Under the pieces are notes generated by a model. It was not told the origin of the DNA and did not search any database. It worked only from the letters and a program-made list of their open reading frames with translations. From a virus, in the IMG/VR virus record IMGVR_UViG_3300008267_000016, positions 21,269-85,268 of that record: a stretch of 64,000 nucleotides of DNA; one strand, 5' to 3'. A program made the position numbers and the translations under genes. Below are positions 4,065-48,146 of the stretch, piece after piece; position 1 is the first letter of the stretch; each line of letters opens with the position of its first letter.

Positions 4065-4520
4065 CTAGTCTAAGAGTGCTGAGGCTTTTGTCTCGAAGTC
4101 GGCTGGGTCCTCAATGAGAAGTGCGATCAGTTTATCAAGCTTAGAGGCGGTGTCAACCACATTAGGGGTGTTCTTGATTAACCAGTAACTATATGCGTTT
4201 AATAGGTAATAATGTGTTTGCTTAGCTTTAAGGGCGCCAACTTTCCAGCGCTCAAAATCAAAAGCGTTGCTGTGGCGACTAGATCCTGTTTTGAGTTCAA
4301 GTTCTCGGATTTCTATTTGAAGCTCGATATCCTTGATTGTGTATTCAAGTGAACTAATTTTCGCTTGACAGTCTTTAAAGCTGGCAGGCGGCTGGTTGTC
4401 TGTGTAGATCCAGCCTGGAAGATTTTCAATGCGAAATTCTTCTTCCCAAAGGCAAGGCCGCTTCAGCTCAGTCGAAGAGCTCTGTGAGTATGCGGGCGAT
4501 GTGTACGTTGTAACAACCAT
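4065..4520 (-). CDS. Hypothetical coiled-coil protein
   Basis: A 151-residue protein with a predicted coiled coil at about residues 50-80 (ISSLEYTIKDIELQIEIREL) followed by a second helical domain. I do not recognise it. It overlaps the end of the ArsR-like gene by 53 bases, so its true start may be later than the ATG at 4520. Confidence 0.6.
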   Translation of the reverse strand: MVVTTYTSPAYSQSSSTELKRPCLWEEEFRIENLPGWIYTDNQPPASFKDCQAKISSLEYTIKDIELQIEIRELELKTGSSRHSNAFDFERWKVGALKAKQTHYYLLNAYSYWLIKNTPNVVDTASKLDKLIALLIEDPADFETKASALLD

Positions 4521-14766: not shown

Positions 14767-15346
14767 AACTTTTATTCGTCGCTACAACATACCTGATGTT
14801 ACTCTGTGCGATGAAATCATAAAATGGTTTGAAGACCACCCTGAGAAACAAGGGACTGGTGTTGTCCAGTCACGAGAAGGTAAACCTATAGTAAATAAAG
14901 ATTATAAAGATGGTACGTGTATTTCTGTGAATGATATTAATTATGCTTACACTCAGCCACCTCTGCGTTCGTTTCTTATTTGGCTTTGGGACTGTGTGAA
15001 TCTGTATTTAGAAGATTTCCCCGAGCTTAAAAATTCTTGTTTTGCTATGAGAGAGGGGTTTAATATTCAAAGATTTCTACCCCCAAGTCAAGGGTTTAAA
15101 GTTTTTCACCATGAAAGGATATCGTATCAAGTCTGTCCTCGTTTACTTGTCTTTATGCTTTATTTAAACGATGTAGAAGATAAAGGCGGTACAGAATTCA
15201 AGTACTACAACCATGTTGAAAAAGCTCAACGCGGCAAATTGTTGATTTGGCCAACAGACTTCACCCACACCCACCGTGGTGTAGTATCGCCAACAGAAAA
15301 AAAGTACATTATTACTGGCTGGTATGGTCTAATCCCTGCAGAGTAA
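14756..15346 (+). CDS. 2-oxoglutarate/Fe(II)-dependent oxygenase (second)
   Basis: A 196-residue protein with FKVFHHERISYQVCPRLLVF, VMLYLND-type strand, EDKGGTEFKYY and LLIWPTDFTHTHRGVVSP followed by KKYIITGWY. This is the layout of the prolyl-hydroxylase family seen in phages and marine bacteria; the first metal pair is H-x-E rather than the common H-x-D. GTG at 14756 overlaps the preceding gene by 11 bases. Its end overlaps the convergent carbamoyltransferase by 18 bases. Confidence 0.8.
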   Translation: MSTETFIRRYNIPDVTLCDEIIKWFEDHPEKQGTGVVQSREGKPIVNKDYKDGTCISVNDINYAYTQPPLRSFLIWLWDCVNLYLEDFPELKNSCFAMREGFNIQRFLPPSQGFKVFHHERISYQVCPRLLVFMLYLNDVEDKGGTEFKYYNHVEKAQRGKLLIWPTDFTHTHRGVVSPTEKKYIITGWYGLIPAE

Positions 15347-16936
15347 TCTCATATTTTCTGGAGTATACAGATAATCTATCTTTGTGTTATTTAAAGTACT
15401 TACAGCGTCTTCAAACGTTTCTATTATTGGTTGCTTATCGACATTAAATGAAGTATTACCTAGTATAGGTACTCCTGTAATTTCGTAAAAATTTTGTATT
15501 AGCTCAAAGTAATTTTTATTTTGTTCTTTTGTTATTGTTTGTATCCTGCACGTACCGTCGACATGTACTATGGCAGGTATCTTTTCTTTTTTTAAACACG
15601 TAGCATTTAGAGTCATAAAAGGGTTTTCTTCGATATCAAACCATTTTTCTACTTCTTCCTGAAGTATAGTACCTGCAAAAGGCCTAAAACTTTCTCTGTT
15701 TTTTATTCGGTTGATTATATCTTTACCGTTTGGCAGACAAGGGTTAAAAAGAATAGAACGGTTTCCTAATGCTCTAGCACCTGCTTCTGACCTCCCCTGG
15801 AACAGAGCGACTGTTTTTCCCTTGGATAACAAAAGAGCTACTTCTTTACTTGTTGTCCTGTCTCCGATTTCTTTAAAAAGTAACTCCTTTTTTGGCCCTA
15901 GGTAGATATTCTCTAACTTTCTCTTTGTCTGGTCTTTTTGCTCAGCGTGGTGCACCAACTTAGCTGCGCCATACGATAGACCTCCGTCACCAGCCATAGG
16001 GTCAATAAAAAAATTAAACTCGCTTAGTTTATCTTTGTAGTATTTATTGGCTACTATATTTAATGCAAAGCCTCCAGATAACACTATATTTTTTGTGTTA
16101 CTCAGTTTTATTGCTTTTTTTATGTAACTTAAAGCTTTTTCTTGTGTTGCTTTTTGTACGGCAAATGCTAGATCTGCTTGTAGCTGTCCCCAATCGTTTG
16201 TAATAAGCTCAGGGTAACTGTAGGTGTTTATCTTATTGTCATTAGTAAAAAGATTTTTATTCGCTTCTTTTTTGGGGCCTGTCAGTATCTCTGGGATGTT
16301 TTTATTTGCTGCTCCGTATGCTGCTAACCCCATGGTTTTACCACAGTCTAGATTTCTAAATCCTTGATGATTAGCTACTGCTTGATACATACCGCCTATA
16401 TCGATATGGGAAGTTATTTCGACTTCTGTGTTATGAAGTAAGGAACTAACAGCGCTAAAATTACTTCCTCTGTGCGGATCGACAACTAGTTTTTTGTACA
16501 GCAGCCTGAAATTATCTGGATACGAGGCTTCGTATACGGATGTTGTTTCAGCACCAAAAGCTCCGTTATTTAGCGCGAATTCTGAACCTCTCCCATCAAA
16601 AACTACGCAGACTGCTTCAGTGAAACCAGAACTGTAGAAAGCCGAAGCAGCGTGGGCTAAATGATGTATATCGTTGTGAACACTAAATCGTTTAAAAGTT
16701 ATTCCATTTTTTCTAAGTAAATGTTTTATGAAGTTTTCATTTCCGCAGTGAGTTACTATAACTGAATCTATTTCTGTGACTATATCTTTTATTTGACCTA
16801 TACATTTTATAGGTTCTGAGTCATATTTTATTTTTGATAATCTTTCTTCCTCTATGAATAGTTCAACTTCCCCATTAATTAGTAAGCAAACACTTGAATT
16901 ATGCTTACCACAATGTATTCCTAATACTGAGTTCAT
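15329..16936 (-). CDS. NodU/CmcH-family O-carbamoyltransferase
   Basis: A 535-residue, full-length member. The N-terminal ASKHA-type domain shows GIHCGKHNSSVCLLINGEVE, EEERLSKIKYD, HHLAHAASAFYSSGF and VVFDGRG. A later SGGFALNIVANKYY and DPMAGDGGLSYGAA are present, and the C-terminal domain has ALFQGRSEAGARALGNRSIL, ESFRPFAGTI and GNTSFN. The family transfers a carbamoyl group from carbamoyl phosphate to a hydroxyl, normally on a sugar. Coupled by an ATGA overlap to an oxygenase and facing two more, it may complete a hydroxylate-then-carbamoylate modification. AT-richer than surrounding genes. Confidence 0.9.
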   Translation of the reverse strand: MNSVLGIHCGKHNSSVCLLINGEVELFIEEERLSKIKYDSEPIKCIGQIKDIVTEIDSVIVTHCGNENFIKHLLRKNGITFKRFSVHNDIHHLAHAASAFYSSGFTEAVCVVFDGRGSEFALNNGAFGAETTSVYEASYPDNFRLLYKKLVVDPHRGSNFSAVSSLLHNTEVEITSHIDIGGMYQAVANHQGFRNLDCGKTMGLAAYGAANKNIPEILTGPKKEANKNLFTNDNKINTYSYPELITNDWGQLQADLAFAVQKATQEKALSYIKKAIKLSNTKNIVLSGGFALNIVANKYYKDKLSEFNFFIDPMAGDGGLSYGAAKLVHHAEQKDQTKRKLENIYLGPKKELLFKEIGDRTTSKEVALLLSKGKTVALFQGRSEAGARALGNRSILFNPCLPNGKDIINRIKNRESFRPFAGTILQEEVEKWFDIEENPFMTLNATCLKKEKIPAIVHVDGTCRIQTITKEQNKNYFELIQNFYEITGVPILGNTSFNVDKQPIIETFEDAVSTLNNTKIDYLYTPENMRLLCRD

Positions 16937-18079: not shown

Positions 18080-18259
18080 TTATTTTTTAGCCACTTTAGT
18101 TATGATACCAGCAATTATTTCAATAATTTTATACAGCTTGGCATAGAGCTCATCGTCTTTCGGCGTCGGGGTGACGTTTACGATGGCCAATGCCAGTACA
18201 TGCAGGGCGGCCAAAATACCTGCGATTTCAGCCCAGTTTTCCGTAAGATGACTAATCAT
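18080..18259 (-). CDS. 59-residue membrane protein, holin-like candidate
   Basis: The minus strand of the gap after the HNH gene encodes MISHLTENWAEIAGILAALH and onward, with a hydrophobic helix (about residues 12-29), a TPTPKDD turn and a second hydrophobic amphipathic helix ending in Lys residues. Two-helix small proteins of this kind occur in phages as holin-like or unknown membrane proteins. It is separated from the endolysin at 20351 and on the other strand, so a lysis role is only possible. Confidence 0.6.
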   Translation of the reverse strand: MISHLTENWAEIAGILAALHVLALAIVNVTPTPKDDELYAKLYKIIEIIAGIITKVAKK

Positions 18260-20350: not shown

Positions 20351-21586
20351 ATGCGTATTTCGCAGAAGGGGATAGATTTAATCAAAAAGTTTGAAGGTAT
20401 TCGGCTGACAGCCTATGTCTGTCCTGCCGGTGTATTGACTATCGGCTATGGGCATACTGGGCCTGATGTGCAACCAGGAATGCGCATCACCGAGGAGGAG
20501 GCCGAGCGTCTGCTGTGGGCTGATACTGAGAGTGCGCAACAGACCGTCAGTAGTTTTGTAAGCGTAAAACTTAATCAGAATGAATATGATGCGCTAGTTT
20601 CTTTTACGTTTAATGTTGGACCGACAGCGTTCGTCAACAGCACGATGCTGCGCCTGCTTAACCATGGAGCTGATCGCAAGGTCGTAGCGGGTGAATTCGG
20701 TAGGTGGGTTAAGGCCGGCAGCGATGAAGTCATCCCTGGTTTGGTACGGCGCCGAGAAGAGGAGAAAAAGTTATTCTTAGAGAAGGTGAAGCATCCTCTT
20801 TTGGCTAAGTCTCTCCTTGCGAAACGTGATACTTGGCTCAAGCGTCACCCTGTTGACTCCAGCACCTTGAAGGCCGAGGAGAAGCTTTTTGTCCCTAAAG
20901 GCAGCGCGTGGCAGTGGACTGAAATCAGGATGTATGCCGGAGAAGCTCACCAGCGAGTGCTCCTAGAGAAGCAACCAGAAGTTGAGTGGTGGTTTTTCCC
21001 GGATCACTGGAAGATCATTAATGACACAGAGACTCAGGAGACACCACCCAAGACAGACGGTGAGATCAAACTAGTTGTTCCTTACTTCTCCCAACGGGAT
21101 AACAAAAAAGATCCTATGCGCACCTGCTTTTCCAGCAGTTGTGCAATGCTCCTGGCGGCTCTCGATCCTGATGCTATTGATACTGACGATGAATACATCA
21201 GTGAAGTATATAAGTACGGTGATACCACATCGGCTTCAGCTCAACTGGACACTCTGAAGCACTTTGGTGTCGACGCTAAGTTTGTTCAAAACGCAAGCTG
21301 GGATACCATCGAGCAGCAGCTCAAGCGAGGCATCCCTGTCCCAATGGGCATCCTCCACAAAGGTCCAGTTTCCAATCCTGTTGGAGGCGGCCACTGGATC
21401 TGCTGTGTGGGCGTCACCGCAGACCGCCAGAAACTTTGGGTGCATGATCCTTTCGGCGATCTTGATCTGATTGGTGGGTCTTACGTTTCTACTGATGGGA
21501 AATACCGCTTGTATTCCAAGAAAAACTTAGGCCCTCGTTTCCTTGTTGAAGGACCTAAGAGTGGCTGGGTAATCCTGGCTAGCTGA
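20351..21586 (+). CDS. Endolysin: GH24 lysozyme plus C39-like peptidase
   Basis: A 411-residue two-enzyme protein. Residues 1-143 are a T4-type lysozyme (GLIKKFEG-type start with Glu 15, TIGYGHTG). Residues about 155-235 form a linker domain (KRDTWLKRHPVDSS, EEKLFVPKG, WWFFPDHW) that may bind the wall. Residues 240-411 are a papain-like C39 family peptidase: RTCFSSSCAMLL with catalytic Cys near 258-263, GGHWICCVG with the His, and WVHDPFGD. It would cut both glycan and peptide bonds of host peptidoglycan. No signal peptide is seen, so a holin is expected. Confidence 0.9.
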   Translation: MRISQKGIDLIKKFEGIRLTAYVCPAGVLTIGYGHTGPDVQPGMRITEEEAERLLWADTESAQQTVSSFVSVKLNQNEYDALVSFTFNVGPTAFVNSTMLRLLNHGADRKVVAGEFGRWVKAGSDEVIPGLVRRREEEKKLFLEKVKHPLLAKSLLAKRDTWLKRHPVDSSTLKAEEKLFVPKGSAWQWTEIRMYAGEAHQRVLLEKQPEVEWWFFPDHWKIINDTETQETPPKTDGEIKLVVPYFSQRDNKKDPMRTCFSSSCAMLLAALDPDAIDTDDEYISEVYKYGDTTSASAQLDTLKHFGVDAKFVQNASWDTIEQQLKRGIPVPMGILHKGPVSNPVGGGHWICCVGVTADRQKLWVHDPFGDLDLIGGSYVSTDGKYRLYSKKNLGPRFLVEGPKSGWVILAS

Positions 21587-33957: not shown

Positions 33958-34854
33958 CTACTTATTTTCTATAAAAAACCTCTTAAGGTCAAACCCTGGA
34001 CCTACCGTACCCTTTAGAACACGCATAGTCATTTTAGCTTTTTCGTGACATGTAAAATACATAGCTTTTTCTTTGTTTGATGTGTAGCTTACTAAGTTGC
34101 GCCTTTCTTTATCTAAGCACTCACTTACATACATCGAGTCTTTAATAATTACCCACACTTCTTGGAAACGCAGGAGCGGCATCGCCTTGGTCTCGTCGAG
34201 TGTGTACAGTCTCGACCTTAAGGTTACCTTTTTATTAGTTTTCTTGACTACACATTTTGTAGTTTCTTTTGTCTTTTTTTTGGTTTCTTTACAATCTTGC
34301 TCTATCGGGTTTTCCAATAGCCTCTTGAGGTTTCGTGCTTTGTTAGCTGCCTCTAGTGCACTCGAAAAAACATCAGACGTGAAGCAGATTCCGTTAGTTG
34401 TACGGGCACAACCGACGTAACCGTTTTCCGTTTTTGCGGTGAATACTTCTTTATCTTCAACGACCTGCAAGTTAAAGATAGTCACAGAAGTTGTCGACTT
34501 CTTTTTACTTTGCTTGGGGACTACATCTACTTTTATTGGCTTCTCTAGTTCTTGTGCAACGACAGAAGCCTCGTGGACCTTCAAGCGATTCTGTTCGTGT
34601 TCAGTCGTCGATTTCATCCCATCCCACAGGATCGAAGCAAAATGCCTCCTGTCTCCTCTTTTGTTTGTTTTGACAAATACTTCTTTCACTGTCCCTAGCC
34701 GCGTGTTGTTCACGTAGCCAGCAATCTTGTCCTTAAGCTTTTGATCAGAGAACTCACTGTAGCAAGTGATGTTCTTGATACCCAGTGTGACTCGATCACC
34801 AATTTTGAGCTTGCTTGGTGAGAGGGGACGTTCGCGCTTTTTGGTGTTACTCAT
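33958..34854 (-). CDS. Lys-rich hypothetical protein, coupled to DNA polymerase
   Basis: A 298-residue protein with an N-terminal KOW/SH3-like strand set (KLKIGDRVTLGIKN, RLGTVKEVFVKTNKRGDR), a middle beta domain, a Lys-rich linker (KETKKKTKETTKCVVKKTNK) and a C-terminal domain. ATGA overlap follows the polymerase gene, so it is translated with it; a DNA-binding accessory role is inferred from charge and position. Confidence 0.6.
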   Translation of the reverse strand: MSNTKKRERPLSPSKLKIGDRVTLGIKNITCYSEFSDQKLKDKIAGYVNNTRLGTVKEVFVKTNKRGDRRHFASILWDGMKSTTEHEQNRLKVHEASVVAQELEKPIKVDVVPKQSKKKSTTSVTIFNLQVVEDKEVFTAKTENGYVGCARTTNGICFTSDVFSSALEAANKARNLKRLLENPIEQDCKETKKKTKETTKCVVKKTNKKVTLRSRLYTLDETKAMPLLRFQEVWVIIKDSMYVSECLDKERRNLVSYTSNKEKAMYFTCHEKAKMTMRVLKGTVGPGFDLKRFFIENK

Positions 34855-36740
34855 TTTTCAGACCAGGTTTCTCCGTAACTAGCGTCTGCTTTAGCAGGCA
34901 CCTCCTTTAAAATCGTTTCAGCGGCTTCTTTCATACAGCGCTCAAGTACTTCTTTGTAGTACTCAACTTTTGTTTCTACAGCCTCTAAAACGATTTCATC
35001 GTGGACACAGGCAACTAAATAAGCTTCGTCGCACAGATAAGGATTGAGCTTCGCTAACGACAGCTTAAGGATATCAGCACCGGCACCTTGTATAAGCGTA
35101 TTGGCACAGGCAGTCATGGTTGCATCTGAGTACGAAAGCAGACGCCTGCGACCTAACGGAGTTCTCACGAAGGTCCACCCATCTTCGACCATCGCAGCAC
35201 GCTCCCGGTGCCACTGCCTTAAACGTGGGTATGCGTTATGGAACGCTGTGTGAGCTACTTTTGCTTCTGATAGAGAAATGATTTTTCCGCTTTGAGCTGC
35301 GTACGTTTTGTACTTACGGAAGCCCATGCCGTATAGCAATGCAAAGTTAAGCGTTTTACCTTCCTGTCGCTGGTTCTTCTGAACCTCTTCTAAAGGTATG
35401 TTGTAGATCAAACTAGCGGTAACCGTATGGAGATCATGACCTTGTTTAAACGCCTCAATCATCTGAGGGATTCCGATCAGCTCCGCACCGAGGCGTAGCT
35501 CAATCTGACTGAAGTCACAGATGATCAGCTTGTAGCCAGGCGTGGCTACGAAACATTCCCGAAACTCTTTGTCTCTCGGAATCTGTTGAGCGTTGATCGC
35601 AAACTGACTTTTAACTTTCTTGGCCGCTGTTTTCTTAGCTCCGCTCGAAGTAAATCTTCCGGAGTTTGCTCCGTACTGGTTATAACCTGAGTGAATTCTG
35701 TGTGTTATAGGGTTGATATTTGCGATTAGTTTTTCTGCGTGTTCGAGTTGAGTTTCGATTTTTGTGCGCTTTCGATAGAGGTTTAAGAGCGGGTCATCCG
35801 AATCAAATTCCGCGAGCTGGATCTGATTAAGAGTGCTCTTTCCTGTTCCTGGATTTGTTGGAAGTGCAATGCCAAGTGCTTCGAAACACTTTGTGCATTG
35901 GACACCGGATCCGGGGTTGAACTCTTTGCGTAAGTTTTTTCCAATTGCCAGTGATCCATCGGTTCTCCTGGGTAGCTTTAGATCCTCTGGTAGAGCGTCG
36001 TCAAGCTTAGTGCAGAATTCTAGAGTAATTTCATCTAACTTTTGCTCGATCGTGTGCTTTAGGGCTATTAGCTTAGTAACATCTACGTTAAATCCTTTGT
36101 GACACATCAGTGCCACGGGGCGTACGCATTTCGACTCCAACGAGTAAACATCAAGCAGAGCTTCTTCTGCTAGCTCTTTAAGTTGATCCGCAGCGATCGT
36201 GGGGAGAAGGTCAACGTCCTTTGCTGCGTATTCGATTTGCTCTATATCAAGATCAGGTTTGCTCCAGTCAGAGATCTGTTGTTCTTTACTAATTTCAATC
36301 TCGAGTCGTCGCTCAACAACAGCCTTCAGTGAGCAGCTAACGTCATCGAAATATGGCTTTTGGAGTTTCGGGCTAACTTTCTTTTCCTTAAAACCAGCCC
36401 GCAAACAACGCTCAGCTACATAAGTATCGAATACCTTTCCTTGATAGTCGATGCCGAGAGACAGCAGGAACTGAAAATCGAAATTTAAGTTGTGGCCGAG
36501 AATCATTTCCCGGCTTTCGATAAATTCCTTTAGCCCACTGGTATCGGTGATTTTGAACAGATCGAGAACGTATACCGTTCTGTCAATAGTCTCTGTCGTA
36601 CACAGCTGAAGCAGTCGAGCTTTAGCCACGTGCGAGTCCAAACCAGTCGTCTCGAAGTCCAGGCATACCTTGGGAATTAGCTGCAGCTCCCCAAGAGCTT
36701 TTTGGTACTCGCTGTTGCTTGTGATGTAACGGATCTGCAT
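34851..36740 (-). CDS. Family A DNA polymerase with 3'-5' exonuclease
   Basis: A 629-residue replicative polymerase. Exo I is CLDFETTGLD (Asp 28, Glu 30). The polymerase domain has motif A LIICDFSQIELRLGAE, motif B RQEGKTLNFALLYGMG, and motif C ACVHDEIVLE near residue 580. The residue equivalent to E. coli Pol I 762 is Phe, which in virioplankton surveys is linked to virulent phages. There is no 5'-3' exonuclease domain. Transcription starts after a terminator, so it may have its own promoter. Confidence 0.96.
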   Translation of the reverse strand: MQIRYITSNSEYQKALGELQLIPKVCLDFETTGLDSHVAKARLLQLCTTETIDRTVYVLDLFKITDTSGLKEFIESREMILGHNLNFDFQFLLSLGIDYQGKVFDTYVAERCLRAGFKEKKVSPKLQKPYFDDVSCSLKAVVERRLEIEISKEQQISDWSKPDLDIEQIEYAAKDVDLLPTIAADQLKELAEEALLDVYSLESKCVRPVALMCHKGFNVDVTKLIALKHTIEQKLDEITLEFCTKLDDALPEDLKLPRRTDGSLAIGKNLRKEFNPGSGVQCTKCFEALGIALPTNPGTGKSTLNQIQLAEFDSDDPLLNLYRKRTKIETQLEHAEKLIANINPITHRIHSGYNQYGANSGRFTSSGAKKTAAKKVKSQFAINAQQIPRDKEFRECFVATPGYKLIICDFSQIELRLGAELIGIPQMIEAFKQGHDLHTVTASLIYNIPLEEVQKNQRQEGKTLNFALLYGMGFRKYKTYAAQSGKIISLSEAKVAHTAFHNAYPRLRQWHRERAAMVEDGWTFVRTPLGRRRLLSYSDATMTACANTLIQGAGADILKLSLAKLNPYLCDEAYLVACVHDEIVLEAVETKVEYYKEVLERCMKEAAETILKEVPAKADASYGETWSEK

Positions 36741-43454: not shown

Positions 43455-43769
43455 CTAACTCAGTTTGCTGTGAATTTCATCAAAGAGTGCCCGACCCTTC
43501 TCTGTTAGTTTCACAAACTTGATTCTTTGATCTGCGTGCCAGGGTTCCCTGCTGATGAGGCCCATCCCAGGTTCACCCTTTTGAGTTTGTGAATCTAGGA
43601 TGCTGCAGTTTCTACTAACGCTTGACTTTGGGATGTCTAGCTTCCTGGCTATGTCCGTCTGAAGGAGTCCCTCTTGAGACTCCCCTACGGCAAGAAAGAT
43701 AAGTAATGTCGTACAAGATACTTCACGCGGGTTATACCGAGCGAAGGGTTCTATTGCGAGCGAGAGCAT
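43455..43769 (-). CDS. MarR-like winged-helix regulator
   Basis: A 104-residue protein with LLQTDIARKLDIPKSSVSRN as helix-turn-helix, GLISREPWHADQRIKFVKLT as wing and EKGRALFDEIHSKLS as the final helix: a minimal MarR/winged-helix repressor. Probably controls the leftward early genes around it; the site is unknown. Confidence 0.8.
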   Translation of the reverse strand: MLSLAIEPFARYNPREVSCTTLLIFLAVGESQEGLLQTDIARKLDIPKSSVSRNCSILDSQTQKGEPGMGLISREPWHADQRIKFVKLTEKGRALFDEIHSKLS

Positions 43770-43948
43770 TCAGGTTTTAGTTGCAGTAATTTAATGTCAA
43801 GGTCATGCAGATTCACCAGCGTAGCTGTGATCTCTTCTTTCATCGACTCAGAGGCAGACAGCAAGTTAAGTTCCTGCCTGACAACTAAAGCATTTAGGGC
43901 ACGTCGGAGCGTGAGAATCTCCTTGAGCGTGAAGCTTACTTCTGACAT
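43751..43948 (-). CDS. Small coiled-coil protein
   Basis: A 65-residue helical protein (MSEVSFTLKEILTLRRALNA, HDLDIKLLQLKPECSRSQ). It overlaps the regulator gene by 19 bases and the upstream secreted-peptide gene by 13. Confidence 0.65.
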   Translation of the reverse strand: MSEVSFTLKEILTLRRALNALVVRQELNLLSASESMKEEITATLVNLHDLDIKLLQLKPECSRSQ

Positions 43949-44058
43949 TGTTCTTGGTTGACTTCGGTGTATTGCCCTGTGTGATGCGCGTGGGCAGCCA
44001 CAGAGCTAAAAGAAACAAGACTGATTGAGATCAGGATGAGGTTAGTGAGAAGCTTCAT
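43936..44058 (-). CDS. 40-residue secreted peptide
   Basis: Reads MKLLTNLILISISLVSFSSV then AAHAHHTGQYTEVNQEQCQK. It has a classic signal peptide (Lys, hydrophobic core, Ala-x-Ala cleavage after about residue 24), leaving a mature peptide of about 16 residues with one Cys. Part of the exported-protein group in 43.9-48.1 kb. Confidence 0.6.
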   Translation of the reverse strand: MKLLTNLILISISLVSFSSVAAHAHHTGQYTEVNQEQCQK

Positions 44059-44080
44059 GCTTGGGGTGTGCGTCAGAAGT

Positions 44081-44335
44081 CTACTTGGATAGGTCTTCCA
44101 AGATCGGGATGAGTCGATTTGCTAACTCACGAGCTGGCTTGCTCTTGCTCCCCTTGATCACAGAGAGCAATGTTTGAGGGCTTATGTTTGTGTAGGTGAT
44201 GTGTTTGCTGCTGATCTGAGAGTGAAGAACGATGGTGATTGGGGAATTCACAAGCAGCCGGAGGTTTCGGGTTGAGTTTAAGGTTGAATCTTCATCAGCA
44301 ACCAGGTCCGTAATGGAGTTTGCCGTTGGGAGCAA
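44081..44335 (-). CDS. Hypothetical protein, start uncertain
   Basis: A frame of 84 codons from TTG at 44335 (TLNSTRNLRLLVNSPITIVL, TLLSVIKGSKSKPARELANR). The helical C-terminus looks real. It overlaps the previous gene by 41 bases, and a GTG inside gives a shorter alternative. Confidence 0.5.
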   Translation of the reverse strand: MLPTANSITDLVADEDSTLNSTRNLRLLVNSPITIVLHSQISSKHITYTNISPQTLLSVIKGSKSKPARELANRLIPILEDLSK

Positions 44336-44453
44336 CTGGGCATTGCATCGAATCCGTTTTTGCCACTGTTCCTCCTCGCATCACAGCACTCAACAAAACT
44401 GAAGCAGAGAAGATTAGGGCGAAGATCTGCAGTTTCTGGTAAGTGGTGCGCAT
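44295..44453 (-). CDS. 52-residue exported or membrane peptide
   Basis: From ATG at 44453, sharing one base with the previous TGA (TGATG), it reads MRTTYQKLQIFALIFSASVL then a Gly/Thr/Lys segment and MQCPVAPNGKLHYGPGC. The hydrophobic N-terminal helix is a signal or anchor, and two Cys in the mature part could form a disulfide. An antiphase frame over it is a shadow. Confidence 0.55.
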   Translation of the reverse strand: MRTTYQKLQIFALIFSASVLLSAVMRGGTVAKTDSMQCPVAPNGKLHYGPGC

Positions 44454-45196
44454 CACGATTGAACAATGAGTTTGGATACGTTGAAGTGCTTGATCCACGT
44501 CACGAGCTTTACAGTTGCGTCGACGTTCTCAAGACCGATGCAGCCGCTAGTGCCTGACTCTCCGTTGAGTTTGCCCCAGGAAGGGTCAACGTGAAAGCCA
44601 AGATCGGATCGCCCTGTGGCGAACATAGGTGTGATCGGCACCCAATAGCCGCTACCTAGTTCGGGATCGCTGAAGGGTCCGCTTTCGATTCCTGCTCGCT
44701 CAATCCGGTAAGTTCCGACAGGCAGAGGGGCCTTTGTGCCAGCGATGTGACGATTAACTGCTTGTCGGGACGCTCTACCCGTCACAGCCTGCAGGCTATC
44801 TAGGACAGTTCCATCCTTACTGATCAGCTGGAGTGTCCAAATAGGATCTTTAGTTGATTTGATCGACTGCGATGATTTTTTAAGTACAAGGAACGGTGCG
44901 TTAGATAGTGGAGGAAGTGCTGGAGGTTGATTCGTGAACTGTATGGAGGGGCGTAAAGATCCTGGTTCGTTTTGGTAGCCTGGCTCAGGTGTAGCGTCCA
45001 GAGGTAACCCACCATCAGGATAAGTTCGAGCCGGATCGTTGCCCAACTCTAAGGGTTGTTCCATGGCGAGCAGCATCTGTTGGTGATACTCGCTGACTTC
45101 CCCTCTTGATTCAAAAAACTTTTGACCTTGATGGATGCCGAGAGCTAGTACAACGCCACCGACTGAACCAATTAAAGCGTACATTTTGAGTTTCAT
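44453..45196 (-). CDS. Membrane-anchored L,D-transpeptidase-like protein
   Basis: A 247-residue protein. Residues 5-22 are a membrane anchor, 30-110 a Pro-rich linker, and 100-247 a YkuD-type catalytic domain with LGFHVDPSWGKLNGESG and TSGCIGLENVD: the conserved His and the S-G-C-I-G-L nucleophile loop. These enzymes cross-link or edit peptidoglycan peptides. Phage-borne copies among exported proteins could strengthen or change the host wall during infection. Confidence 0.8.
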   Translation of the reverse strand: MKLKMYALIGSVGGVVLALGIHQGQKFFESRGEVSEYHQQMLLAMEQPLELGNDPARTYPDGGLPLDATPEPGYQNEPGSLRPSIQFTNQPPALPPLSNAPFLVLKKSSQSIKSTKDPIWTLQLISKDGTVLDSLQAVTGRASRQAVNRHIAGTKAPLPVGTYRIERAGIESGPFSDPELGSGYWVPITPMFATGRSDLGFHVDPSWGKLNGESGTSGCIGLENVDATVKLVTWIKHFNVSKLIVQS

Positions 45197-45199
45197 TAG

Positions 45200-45598
45200 T
45201 TACATGTTCCCAGGGCCTGTTTGTACAGACGGAGGAGGTAGGTAAGGAGCAGGTGACTCGAAGTTACCCGGACCCACTGTAGGCGCTGGCGGGGCAGCAA
45301 CATGTGCTGGGTCAGCTTGTTGAAACACAGCCGTTTCAGGCGCTGGTTGTTGTTCCTTTGGTGCCTCTGCCTCTGGTGTTTCCTTGGCTTCTTTCGAAGC
45401 GGTCGGGCCACCACCTTCGAGCTGCTGTAGCCACTCAGATTTTGCCGCCTGCTGTGGGTCAGCTTCGAGTTTCCCTGGTTTGTCTTTAGATGCGCCGGGT
45501 ATCAAAGCTGATACAACCATACCCCCTAAACTTATGCAGATTGAAGCCACGAGGAAGGCGCCAACACCTGCAGCCACTAAAGCTATCTTGCGAAACAT
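45200..45598 (-). CDS. Single-pass membrane protein with Pro/Ala-rich tail
   Basis: A 132-residue protein. Residues 5-35 form a hydrophobic helix (IALVAAGVGAFLVASICISL); the rest is acidic and Pro/Ala/Gln-rich with PGNFESPAPYLPPPS at the end. It lies just upstream of the transpeptidase gene, with the same membrane-plus-linker style, and could be its partner. Confidence 0.65.
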   Translation of the reverse strand: MFRKIALVAAGVGAFLVASICISLGGMVVSALIPGASKDKPGKLEADPQQAAKSEWLQQLEGGGPTASKEAKETPEAEAPKEQQPAPETAVFQQADPAHVAAPPAPTVGPGNFESPAPYLPPPSVQTGPGNM

Positions 45599-45608
45599 GA
45601 TTGTTCAG

Positions 45609-45998
45609 TTAGTTGACGGCTTCGCTACCCCAGCGATTCAAGACTGCACGGAGTCCAGCTGCTTGAGCATCAGGACCATTACGATCCTTACAGGAGTAGT
45701 AACCCTCTAAATAAACTTCTTGAAGTTCCCTATCTGTCGGCCGCTTGTCTGAGCCTCGCGGTTTAGGACGACGAGCCTCACGCAGTTTTTTCACAAGGAT
45801 TCTTCGTTGAAACTTAGTACCACAGCAGGGATCAACTTCAACTAAAGCACAACACGCTTCTAGCTCCGTATCTGCACCCCACTGAGCAGCTTCGTTAGCT
45901 ACATCAATTACCCACTGATTTGGGGGTAGAGCTTTAGCCCCTAGAAACCATCGCTGTACCAATGCTTGTGATGGGGTGACTGGATGTTCTTGAGTCAT
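45609..45998 (-). CDS. MTQEHPVTP-type modular protein
   Basis: From the ATG at 45998, 129 residues: MTQEHPVTPSQALVQRWFLG, AAQWGADTELEACCALVE and LREARRPKPRGSDKRPTDRE, ending AAGLRAVLNRWGSEAVN. The N-terminal module is shared with the protein at 25633 and the ending resembles the ARAVLARWG module at 24446. It therefore joins two modules found apart in the GC-rich array. Confidence 0.8.
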   Translation of the reverse strand: MTQEHPVTPSQALVQRWFLGAKALPPNQWVIDVANEAAQWGADTELEACCALVEVDPCCGTKFQRRILVKKLREARRPKPRGSDKRPTDRELQEVYLEGYYSCKDRNGPDAQAAGLRAVLNRWGSEAVN

Positions 45999-46023
45999 TT
46001 TTAAATTAAATACTGTTTTGAAA

Positions 46024-46302
46024 CTATCTGCATAGATAGTCAGAGCGCATCCAACCCACGAGTCCGTTGTACTCAACTTTCCACCAGCGCAGTTTGTCTC
46101 CACCCCACACCCAAGTCAGTGCACGGAGATAACTTTCATTCGGGATCGAAGCAACAACAGTTGCTCGTGTTGATGGTTGTGTCCGTAGATTTACTGAGCT
46201 GTTGTAGTCACGAGTGCAAGTCATCGCCCACTGAGCTTTAGCCGGCGTGGCGATGAGAAACGAAGCGAAAGAAGAAAGGAGTAAGGAAGTAAGGAGTTTC
46301 AT
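46024..46302 (-). CDS. Secreted SH3-domain protein
   Basis: A 92-residue protein with a signal peptide (MKLLTSLLLSSFASFLIATP, AKAQ cleavage) and a bacterial SH3 domain (SSVNLRTQPSTRATVVASIP, WWKVEYNGLVGWMRSDYL). Bacterial SH3 domains bind peptidoglycan or proteins in the periplasm. Confidence 0.8.
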   Translation of the reverse strand: MKLLTSLLLSSFASFLIATPAKAQWAMTCTRDYNSSVNLRTQPSTRATVVASIPNESYLRALTWVWGGDKLRWWKVEYNGLVGWMRSDYLCR

Positions 46303-46304
46303 GG

Positions 46305-46559
46305 TTAGTTGAGGGACTGAGGGATTACATCTTCGAGAGGAACTAGAAGCTTAATTGTCCAGGCCCTGAAGTTGTTACTAGTGCGGTCGATTTCTACAAG
46401 TTTCCGTTCTTCTAATGAAGCAACAGCTTTTAGAAAGACGTTTTGCCTACTTGCTGTGACTTTGCCGAGGTAGCAAGGTTCGTCGGGATAACGGTGTTCG
46501 TGTTGTGCTACCAAACGTATGAGGTTACGTTGGTTAGTTCGCAGGTTAGGCAGAGGCAT
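46305..46559 (-). CDS. Winged-helix-like small protein
   Basis: An 84-residue protein (NLRTNQRNLIRLVAQHEHRY, SRQNVFLKAVASLEERKLVE, then a strand ending in the wing-like NNFRAWTIKLLV). The pattern is that of a MarR-like winged helix. Its ATG overlaps the previous stop by one base. Confidence 0.55.
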   Translation of the reverse strand: MPLPNLRTNQRNLIRLVAQHEHRYPDEPCYLGKVTASRQNVFLKAVASLEERKLVEIDRTSNNFRAWTIKLLVPLEDVIPQSLN

Positions 46560-46924
46560 TAGTGCATTGGAACGCGGCTAACAGTGTAATCCTGCTTGTC
46601 CACCATGGGGATGACTTCGTTCTGTGTAGTCAGAAACCACTCGAAATTAGTTTGTGACACACAAGCACCGCAGAACTCACGCAAGATAACGTGCAGGCGA
46701 GACTTAGTTGTGTTTGTTCGCCACCCACAGTTGTTGACTGTTACATCGTCGGGAGTCACCGTGGCGATGAGGTTGTTGTGCAGGTAGACATTGCAGCGGT
46801 CGATGATGCGATCTTCAGAATCCACAGGATGTGGGAAGTGAATACACTCAACGCGAGTGTTATCCAAGCTGAAGTTCTTGCGCTCGATGATTGCGCTGAG
46901 CATCTTCTTTTCGATGGTTCTCAT
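46559..46924 (-). CDS. Conserved phage protein (MRTIE...TKSRL family)
   Basis: A 121-residue protein: MRTIEKKMLSAIIERKNFSL, VYLHNNLIATVTPDDVTVN, CGWRTNTTKSRLHVILREF. This arrangement is common in small unknown proteins of many tailed phages. The Cys pair CGAC after it is variable. Coupled by ATGA-type overlap to the next gene upstream. Confidence 0.8.
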   Translation of the reverse strand: MRTIEKKMLSAIIERKNFSLDNTRVECIHFPHPVDSEDRIIDRCNVYLHNNLIATVTPDDVTVNNCGWRTNTTKSRLHVILREFCGACVSQTNFEWFLTTQNEVIPMVDKQDYTVSRVPMH

Positions 46925-47292
46925 GATTCAGTGTTGTAATGGTTGACTACAGCTTCGAACGAATCAGGCGAAGCGATTGGTTTGAACCGACGAACTTGGT
47001 TTAGCCACTGATCTTTGTGTACCCAGGATTTTGCATCAGGCTCTGAGCCGGGTAGTTCATCTTTGAACGTGAGATCCCACGCTTTAGCTAGTTTGATTGC
47101 TTCGTTCATGGGACCGTTATACCTGCCGGCCGTCATTCCTGACTCAATGTGAGTGATTGTCCAGGTGCATTTCTCTTTGCTGAGTTTGCCACCGAAACCG
47201 ACAACTGGGCGGTGGACAGCCAAGGCTTCTCCCATCCACTTAGTAGGGATCTTGAAAGCGCCTTCGTTCGTGTTAATCGTCACCATCTTCAT
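46921..47292 (-). CDS. Conserved phage protein of unknown function
   Basis: From ATG at 47292, 123 residues: a beta strand (VTINTNEGAFKIP), then TWTITHIESGMTAGRYNGPM and AIKLAKAWD. The WxITHxxSG-x-x-AG and final helix suggest a small alpha-beta protein known from phage early regions. It overlaps the gene at 47273 by 20 bases. Confidence 0.7.
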   Translation of the reverse strand: MKMVTINTNEGAFKIPTKWMGEALAVHRPVVGFGGKLSKEKCTWTITHIESGMTAGRYNGPMNEAIKLAKAWDLTFKDELPGSEPDAKSWVHKDQWLNQVRRFKPIASPDSFEAVVNHYNTES

Positions 47293-47476
47293 GGTCTGCA
47301 ATGGATTGTTTAAGCTGGTCGATTGCCTGCATCAGGCGATGGGCACGCGCTGAAGTTATGCAGTCTTCGAGTGAAGATTCCAATTCATTCAGTGCATGGC
47401 GTGCATCTTCAATAGTTAGGAAAGTGTCGACGGCGTACGGTGCGCCATACTCATCATCAACGACAATTTGAATCAT
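47273..47476 (-). CDS. Small acidic helical protein
   Basis: From ATG at 47476, 67 residues: MIQIVVDDEYGAPYAVDTFL, EDARHALNELESSLEDCITS. Starts at a TGATG junction with the gene before it. Confidence 0.65.
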   Translation of the reverse strand: MIQIVVDDEYGAPYAVDTFLTIEDARHALNELESSLEDCITSARAHRLMQAIDQLKQSIADHEDGDD

Positions 47477-47700
47477 CAGATCATCCCGTGAGAGTCGATG
47501 TGGGCTTGAATCATGTCGTCTGTAGGTTCCCAACCTTCGAGATACTCAAGGGCAGGGATGATGTTGTCCTCGATCTGCTCGATTACATCTGCGGGAATCG
47601 TGTCATCGTGCCGCACGATTTGCTTGAAGCGAGCGAGAGAGTGATACGCGAGAGAGTGCCAGCTCAAGTTGTAAAGATCGTAAGGAATGTGATTTGTCAT
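47476..47700 (-). CDS. Small hypothetical protein, first gene after a strong promoter
   Basis: From ATG at 47700, 74 residues (MTNHIPYDLYNLSWHSLAYH, IPADVIEQIEDNIIPALEYL). The 5' leader between promoter and ATG contains the GATGACCGTAGAA repeat described separately. Confidence 0.7.
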   Translation of the reverse strand: MTNHIPYDLYNLSWHSLAYHSLARFKQIVRHDDTIPADVIEQIEDNIIPALEYLEGWEPTDDMIQAHIDSHGMI

Positions 47701-47710
47701 GATCAAAAAT

Positions 47711-47723
47711 GATGACCGTAGAA
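47711..47723. repeat. GATGACCGTAGAA repeat, copy 1
   Basis: The 13-base sequence also occurs at 51188 and 52098, where it extends to 17 bases. Here it lies in the 5' leader of a leftward operon. Confidence 0.85.
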
Positions 47724-47749
47724 GATGTGATGCAGCGAGAGGCCGCCAC

Positions 47750-47777
47750 ACTATACCATGCCTGTCGGAACAGTCAA
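47750..47777 (-). promoter_or_regulatory. Sigma70-type promoter
   Basis: On the minus strand TTGACT is followed after 16 bases by TATAGT. It lies about 50 bases before the ATG at 47700 and drives the 47.7 kb leftward genes. The same TATAGT box precedes both tRNA genes. Confidence 0.8.
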
Positions 47778-47786
47778 GGCACTGTG

Positions 47787-48104
47787 CTAGTAGTGGATGG
47801 ATACTGTTGCGATACCATCAATCGGTACACCTAGGCGATAGGCTGCGCCAGCTGACAAGTCGATCGAGTTACACTCGCAGCGATCTGTGATTGGTACAGT
47901 CAGGGTTCGCCCCTTGTGCTGAACGCGAACCTTTGTGCCGCAAGGTAACCAAGGGTGAGCAGCTGAAATACCCCAGTGCTGGTAAGTTTGACCGCAGTAA
48001 GTTTCTCTCGCGTGATACCACTCGTGGTAAACAGTTGCAGTAACTGGGCGAGCACTAACTGGGTTGATGAACATCATAGGGAACAACAAAAGCAATCGTT
48101 TCAT
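47787..48104 (-). CDS. Secreted RlpA-like double-psi beta-barrel protein
   Basis: A 105-residue protein with a signal peptide (MKRLLLLFPMMFINPVSA) and a barrel domain: WGISAAHPWLPCGTKVRVQH, LTVPITDRCECNSIDLSAGA, YRLGVPIDGIATVSI. The GTxVxV, VTDRxxC and D-L-S-x-x-A marks fit RlpA-like proteins, some of which cut denuded peptidoglycan. It is one of at least five exported cell-wall-type products in this region. Confidence 0.85.
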   Translation of the reverse strand: MKRLLLLFPMMFINPVSARPVTATVYHEWYHARETYCGQTYQHWGISAAHPWLPCGTKVRVQHKGRTLTVPITDRCECNSIDLSAGAAYRLGVPIDGIATVSIHY

Positions 48105-48146
48105 GTGATGTTGAAGTGATTGTGTGAGTTGGCCCCGCTTCAGCGG
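48105..48146 (-). repeat. Intergenic hairpin element, copy A
   Basis: On the minus strand the element has CCCGC-TGAA-GCGGG followed by GCCAACTCACACAATCACTT and then the ATG of the RlpA-like gene. The stop codon of the upstream gene lies inside the hairpin loop. Confidence 0.75.

Follow-up and report, generated by a model that had tools for sequence, protein, structure and literature searches.

Co-inherited SH3, proline-rich and YkuD-family genes on the replication strand of a cyanophage genome may form a module that edits the host wall before lysis

The DNA analyzed here, a stretch of 64,000 nucleotides covering bases 21269 to 85268 of the 85,268-base virus record IMGVR_UViG_3300008267_000016 (hereafter the window), derives from a virus of aquatic cyanobacteria and carries an accessory unit of three genes on its minus strand. 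These encode a secreted SH3 protein, a membrane-anchored proline-rich (Pro-rich) protein and a membrane-anchored YkuD-family enzyme. Judging by the sequences compared, this SH3-PRO-YkuD cassette is inherited all or none, and it is narrower than the region rich in exported proteins to which a preliminary description of the window had drawn attention. We propose, with a probability of about one half, that the cassette acts in the periplasm to edit the peptidoglycan of the host ahead of lysis. The portal protein of the virus has Synechococcus phage S-EIVl as its closest cultured relative (47.5% over 78%), and further marker genes in the window include a family A DNA polymerase and a terminase.

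Of 33 records, which comprise 27 distinct sequences (the enzymes of the window, L002 and L003 are identical, and other near-identical sets are present), 29 have the SH3, Pro-rich and YkuD genes in this order and all on the same strand. In two of the four exceptions, L031 and L064, the start of the contig truncates the locus. The third, L029 (5523-6462), has SH3 and YkuD genes without a Pro-rich gene, together with a Pro-rich enzyme stalk and a divergent SH3, and the fourth, L011 (5149-5455), is the remnant of a broken cassette with an internal deletion and an internal stop codon. The count includes L045 and L056 as L062 and L063, and it excludes second loci of the same contigs (L033-L044, L046-L055, L057 and L058) as well as L059, where a 38% SH3 match lies inside a long open reading frame (ORF). 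Most records were collected via the enzyme; in the converse search, the SH3 query alone recovered 27 loci, 26 of them also with a YkuD gene. Among the first ten related loci, the trio is intact even where all or nearly all neighbors differ (L007, L009 and L010). Opposite-strand ORFs from a mechanical list, some with phage-family matches, lie on either side of it in L028 and L056, and a long operon may therefore be unnecessary. Purifying selection was found on all three genes, with ratios of nonsynonymous to synonymous substitutions (dN/dS) of 0.02 to 0.33 where dS was computable, 3 of 18 comparisons being saturated.

The cassette appears to be missing from some other members of the lineage. 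None of the three genes was found in ten contigs selected by their portal genes, with this genome as the positive control; only two of these contigs are near full length (78 and 82 kb), and the other eight count little. The same was true of S-EIVl, in which the best E value for the enzyme was 0.82. In a 78-kb relative without the cassette (L164), the genes that flank it in the window lie near each other, with a counterpart of the 46305 gene at 4185-4403 and one of the 43751 gene from 4895. A cellular origin is unsupported: a scan of genome contigs with the enzyme alignment gave no relatives among 80 pattern matches (strict patterns), and an SH3 scan gave only five weak SH3 domains, in metagenome-assembled genomes of Firmicutes and Chloroflexi. 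A plasmid scan yielded two records, both from Nostoc and at roughly 30%; the annotation of one is glycoside hydrolase. A literature search, with most subscription papers outside its coverage, returned no recognized description of the trio.

The enzyme gene (44453..45196, minus strand) encodes 247 amino acids, with an N-terminal transmembrane (TM) segment, a Pro-rich stalk and a catalytic domain at about residues 100 to 247. The product passes the curated Pfam cut-off for YkuD (PF03734; E 2.4e-5, 25.4 bits against 23.4), and its catalytic residues, His202 (44591-44593) and Cys219 (44540-44542), belong to a conserved core in which H202, D204, the motif NGESGTSGC (ending in C219) and G221 are invariant across 24 aligned sequences. 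The classical L,D-transpeptidase core is SHGC followed by R or N; it is absent here, all 24 sequences having TSGC[IV]G. Loss of the catalytic Cys or His in related phages, which the preliminary description had put forward as a refuting observation, was not seen: 32 of the 33 records retain the His/Cys core, and the exception is the L011 deletion remnant, where Ser replaces the catalytic Cys. A sequence-profile search for a relative in the PDB found none. The AlphaFold 2 (AF2) model has a mean predicted local distance difference test score (pLDDT) of 69.8, the blocks of the catalytic domain lying mostly at 73 to 91 and three of them at 57 to 68. When residues 98 to 247 of this model were compared with solved folds using VIA-align, Bacillus subtilis YkuD (1y7m) scored Z 12.2 (root mean square deviation 2.4, 108 aligned), the L,D-carboxypeptidases Pgp2 and Bd1075 scored 11.8 and 11.5, in effect level with YkuD, Ldt2 of Mycobacterium abscessus 10.7, that of M. 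tuberculosis (LdtMt2) 10.6 and below, and DpaA 9.4, with unrelated rows beginning far under these at Z 3.4. Together, these comparisons show that the predicted fold is that of YkuD and that the His/Cys core is intact. The resemblance of the modeled enzyme to the Pgp2/Bd1075 type is a likeness of fold only; proteins of that type can be carboxypeptidases (PMC8938487).

The Pro-rich protein (45200..45598, minus strand; 132 amino acids) has one N-terminal TM segment (window value 2.4) and ends in a bipartite tip, GPGNF...GPGNM. It reaches no Pfam cut-off, and neither do the tiny ORFs of the region. All 29 homologues carry two GPG[ND] motifs with a spacing of 16 to 20 residues, and the protein ends at the second of them (GPG[ND]...GPGN[ML]; in L010, one residue more follows it than in the other records), and an extra GPG[ND] occurs in the enzyme stalk of seven distinct relatives (9 of 33 records including near-identical copies). 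The SH3b protein (46024..46302, minus strand; 92 amino acids) has a signal peptide and passes the SH3_3 cut-off (E 2.6e-11, 44 bits against 27), and its two cysteines, C29 and C91, are invariant across an alignment of 20 sequences. Its AF2 model has a mean pLDDT of 80, and the top VIA-align rows include NlpC (NlpC2) and endolysin SH3b domains at Z 11.2 to 11.0. In L029, the record without a Pro-rich gene, the SH3 is the one least similar to that of the window (51%), a single case that hints at recognition of the Pro-rich tip by the SH3.

The placement of the cassette bears on when it may be expressed. Between 26 and 51 kb of the window, almost every larger ORF is leftward, and the exported cluster lies inside this block, upstream of DNA polymerase A (34851..36740, minus strand; phrog_17, E 2e-102), an orientation marker located on the cassette strand and 7.7 kb downstream of the cassette. 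Across the 15 records searched, the YkuD gene is on the polymerase strand and upstream of the polymerase in all 11 that have both genes (in one of these the match to the polymerase is only weak, E 7e-4), opposite the portal gene in 10 of 11, and opposite the lysozyme gene in 9 of 9, which is not the placement of a phage lysis cassette. In the window, the main endolysin candidate (20351..21586, plus strand) combines a phage lysozyme with a Peptidase_C39-like domain (PF00959, E 6.5e-45; PF13529, E 9.6e-9). The preliminary description was correct that the exported genes do not adjoin the lysis genes, the lysozyme gene being far away and on the opposite strand. It had placed lysis genes at 688 and 20351; the second is indeed a phage lysozyme, and the first, a lambda-lysozyme-like ORF (688-1512; PDB 1am7, E 2e-17), may encode a virion enzyme instead of a lysis protein. 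The label 'early-type' of the preliminary description is purely positional: the location on the replication strand supports early or middle expression without proving it. A scan for promoters and terminators gave fewer matches than in shuffled sequence. The co-inheritance, order and replication-strand placement of the cassette are thus shown at the level of sequence, as are the predicted TM anchors of the enzyme and the Pro-rich protein and the signal peptide of the SH3 protein.

If the cassette edits the wall, the YkuD enzyme would be held at the inner membrane and act on the L,D bonds of meso-diaminopimelate (mDAP) in stem peptides, the SH3 protein would dock on the wall and/or the Pro-rich rod, and the conserved GPGN tip of the rod would keep the partners in the gap between inner membrane and wall. 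Hydrolysis, trimming or exchange would be a more likely activity than the building of 3-3 cross-links, because phages pair this YkuD branch with wall-cleaving partners. The purpose is the most speculative step: the altered wall might hinder a second phage, or the cell might stay intact until the lysozyme acts. Superinfection exclusion or wall stabilization is thus plausible but unproven, and none of seven proteins matched the anti-phage defense models of PADLOC-DB at E<=0.01. We would give little credence to a bolder version, in which the cassette would be a device for superinfection exclusion that can be passed between phages. Its inner-membrane YkuD enzyme would derive from the domain found in virion and lysis enzymes of other cyanophages and would now edit the infected cell's wall. 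Its partner would be the Pro-rich rod in the periplasm, with the GPGN tip serving as a docking motif of a new kind to which the secreted SH3b domain binds, so that SH3/Pro-rich recognition would operate in the periplasm of a bacterium.

Several observations weigh against pre-lytic editing. The full three-gene set is dispensable, as indicated by the L011 remnant and by L029, and in G004 (locus L010) the cassette shares the portal strand. The mean pLDDT of the enzyme model is modest, and Foldseek found no match for this model in the PDB at E<=0.001. The closest phage relatives of the enzyme are enzymes of lysis or of the tail: its viral-library matches are proteins named as tape measure, GH19 and tail lysozyme, together with the Nodularia endolysin. 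In Nodularia phages, lysozyme is fused to a related YkuD domain, which aligns with that of the enzyme at 31% identity over 118 columns, and Microcystis phage Mic1 gp80, a distant relative of the enzyme by profile (hhalign probability 90, E 1.6e-6), is transcribed late and together with a muramidase (PMC11237433). The Nodularia fusion and the timing of gp80 are also what would be expected of a lysis accessory, with the anchored YkuD as an additional lytic enzyme, one that loosens cross-links between stem peptides and so aids the lysozyme at the end of infection. We consider this unlikely, though not far-fetched, given the strand opposite the lysozyme and shared with the polymerase in every record with the genes concerned. 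Furthermore, gp80 starts without an N-terminal signal or TM segment, hence represents another arrangement, and its timing is not decisive for the enzyme described here.

Other explanations can be weighed against the same data. A true L,D-transpeptidase might reinforce the wall with 3-3 cross-links and so allow the cell to withstand a prolonged infection or lysis from without; the inner-membrane anchor and the nearness of the modeled fold to the mycobacterial Ldt2 enzymes are in its favor, but the TSGC[IV]G core and the co-occurrence of phage relatives of the domain with hydrolases make it a rather improbable case. The exported genes might also be a loose collection without joint function in a variable region. 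The slot is indeed variable, and this account holds for the RlpA-like gene and the tiny peptides described below; for the cassette itself it is quite improbable, since the order and co-occurrence of its genes persist even with differing flanks. Finally, the enzyme might link the Pro-rich protein covalently to peptidoglycan, in the way that LdtA-C attach Braun's lipoprotein, which would suit two adjacent anchored proteins and a conserved C-terminal tip. However, a Lys lies within the last 30 residues of just 1 of 29 Pro-rich proteins, and the N-terminus of the Pro-rich protein should be cytoplasmic, so that covalent attachment is highly improbable; anchoring of the Lpp type was rejected, as 28 of the 29 proteins lack a C-terminal lysine acceptor. 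Editing of the wall from the periplasm before lysis is the explanation that we favor.

The wider region (43,900-48,110) is rich in exported wall-type proteins, as the preliminary description had stated: 6 of its 13 ORFs have the appearance of export, whereas the rest of the window has 2 such ORFs among 118 (hypergeometric P 7e-6, indicative only, since the region was supplied beforehand and not picked blind). It is important to consider that the export test was Kyte-Doolittle N-terminal hydrophobicity, which is crude and not equivalent to SignalP, and that one of the two outside positives, a MarR-like ORF at 43455, is probably false. All the products named earlier are present on the minus strand, with Pfam matches for YkuD, SH3_3 and DPBB_1. 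The earlier interpretation holds as regards exported wall-type proteins on the replication strand, opposite the lysozyme gene; a single program of six exported genes is not supported, as the RlpA-like gene and the tiny peptides are distributed independently and only the SH3, Pro-rich and YkuD genes travel together.

The independent neighbors are as follows. The secreted double-psi beta-barrel (RlpA-like) protein (47787..48104, minus strand; 105 amino acids) matches the DPBB_1 domain alone (E 3e-18) and misses the RlpA TIGR00413 cut-off (44.4 bits against 82.15); its gene was found in 3 of 10 near-full-length records tested, all three being among the eight with the cassette. Between the SH3 and Pro-rich genes lies a phrog_32006 ORF (45609..46103, minus strand; E 1.8e-16; likely real start near 45998), which is missing there in most relatives and lies downstream of the enzyme gene in L010; on this comparative basis it is an interloper outside the unit. 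A tiny exported-looking peptide with a hydrophobic N-terminus (44295..44453, minus strand; 52 amino acids from the ATG at 44453) overlaps the enzyme stop codon and is confined to close relatives, with matches in L002-L006 and L011 of 10 loci. Another, with HH and Cys residues (43936..44058, minus strand; 40 amino acids), adjoins the MarR and dCTP-deaminase genes; a similar short exported HH peptide, compared by eye, lies between the flanking genes of the cassette-less L164 (4759-4887), which assigns the 43936 peptide to the MarR/dCTP-deaminase block and not to the cassette. The 43936 peptide and its L164 counterpart (about 40 amino acids) each contain an AHAHH stretch, with a Cys close to the C-terminal end, and are possibly secreted metal-binding peptides. 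Adjoining the cassette on the other side, 46559-46924 (minus strand) encodes a Kyano_Gp96/phrog_554 protein, from a family without an assigned function.

Further features of the genome were observed. A 59-residue protein with a single TM segment and a basic tail (18080-18259, minus strand; phrog_9685 and phrog_402, function unassigned in both) is encoded about 2 kb from the lysozyme gene, on the other strand, and looks, as an impression, like a holin candidate. The ORF 15329-16936 (minus strand), amid rightward ORFs, encodes a Nol-like carbamoyltransferase (phrog_1601, E 3.5e-145). A portal-like protein of the S-EIVl lineage in L012 (7820-10045) has related places at no fewer than 533 positions in the viral collection but matches just one record from a cultured phage.

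YkuD enzymes of phages tend to be classed as lysis proteins, and here one is anchored, accompanied by two exported partners and located among replication genes. With this layout, the idea that the cyanobacterial wall is edited ahead of lysis can be put to a direct test, and inheritance as a set, together with the GPGN tip, provides clear targets for interaction and muropeptide analyses in a large, mostly uncultured cyanophage lineage.

Compared with known systems, the enzyme shares its predicted fold over residues 98 to 247 and its His/Cys core with the YkuD-family (PF03734) L,D-transpeptidases and carboxypeptidases (YkuD, Pgp2, Bd1075, LdtMt2 and DpaA), and differs from them in its TSGC[IV]G core, its long Pro-rich stalk, its phage-borne state and its regular SH3 and Pro-rich neighbors. 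Mic1 gp80 (MN013189) is likewise a phage YkuD domain (GRSELGLHFD...GSAGCI), but it has 154 amino acids, no N-terminal signal or TM segment by eye, a strand opposite that of its direct neighbors and late expression. The Nodularia endolysins (kac65v151 and relatives) contain a related YkuD domain but fused to lysozyme, and the three-gene cassette is not annotated in the stretch inspected; in the window, the corresponding lysozyme is fused to a Peptidase_C39-like domain. RlpA/DPBB proteins resemble the product of 47787-48104 in their DPBB domain and have relatives in several cyanophages, with a distribution of their own outside the cassette. Lastly, T4 Spackle is a helical inhibitor of the tail lysozyme, for which we claim no kinship of sequence or fold; as an early exported periplasmic protein that excludes superinfection at the wall (PMC7677548), it offers a precedent for an early exported phage protein acting at this site.

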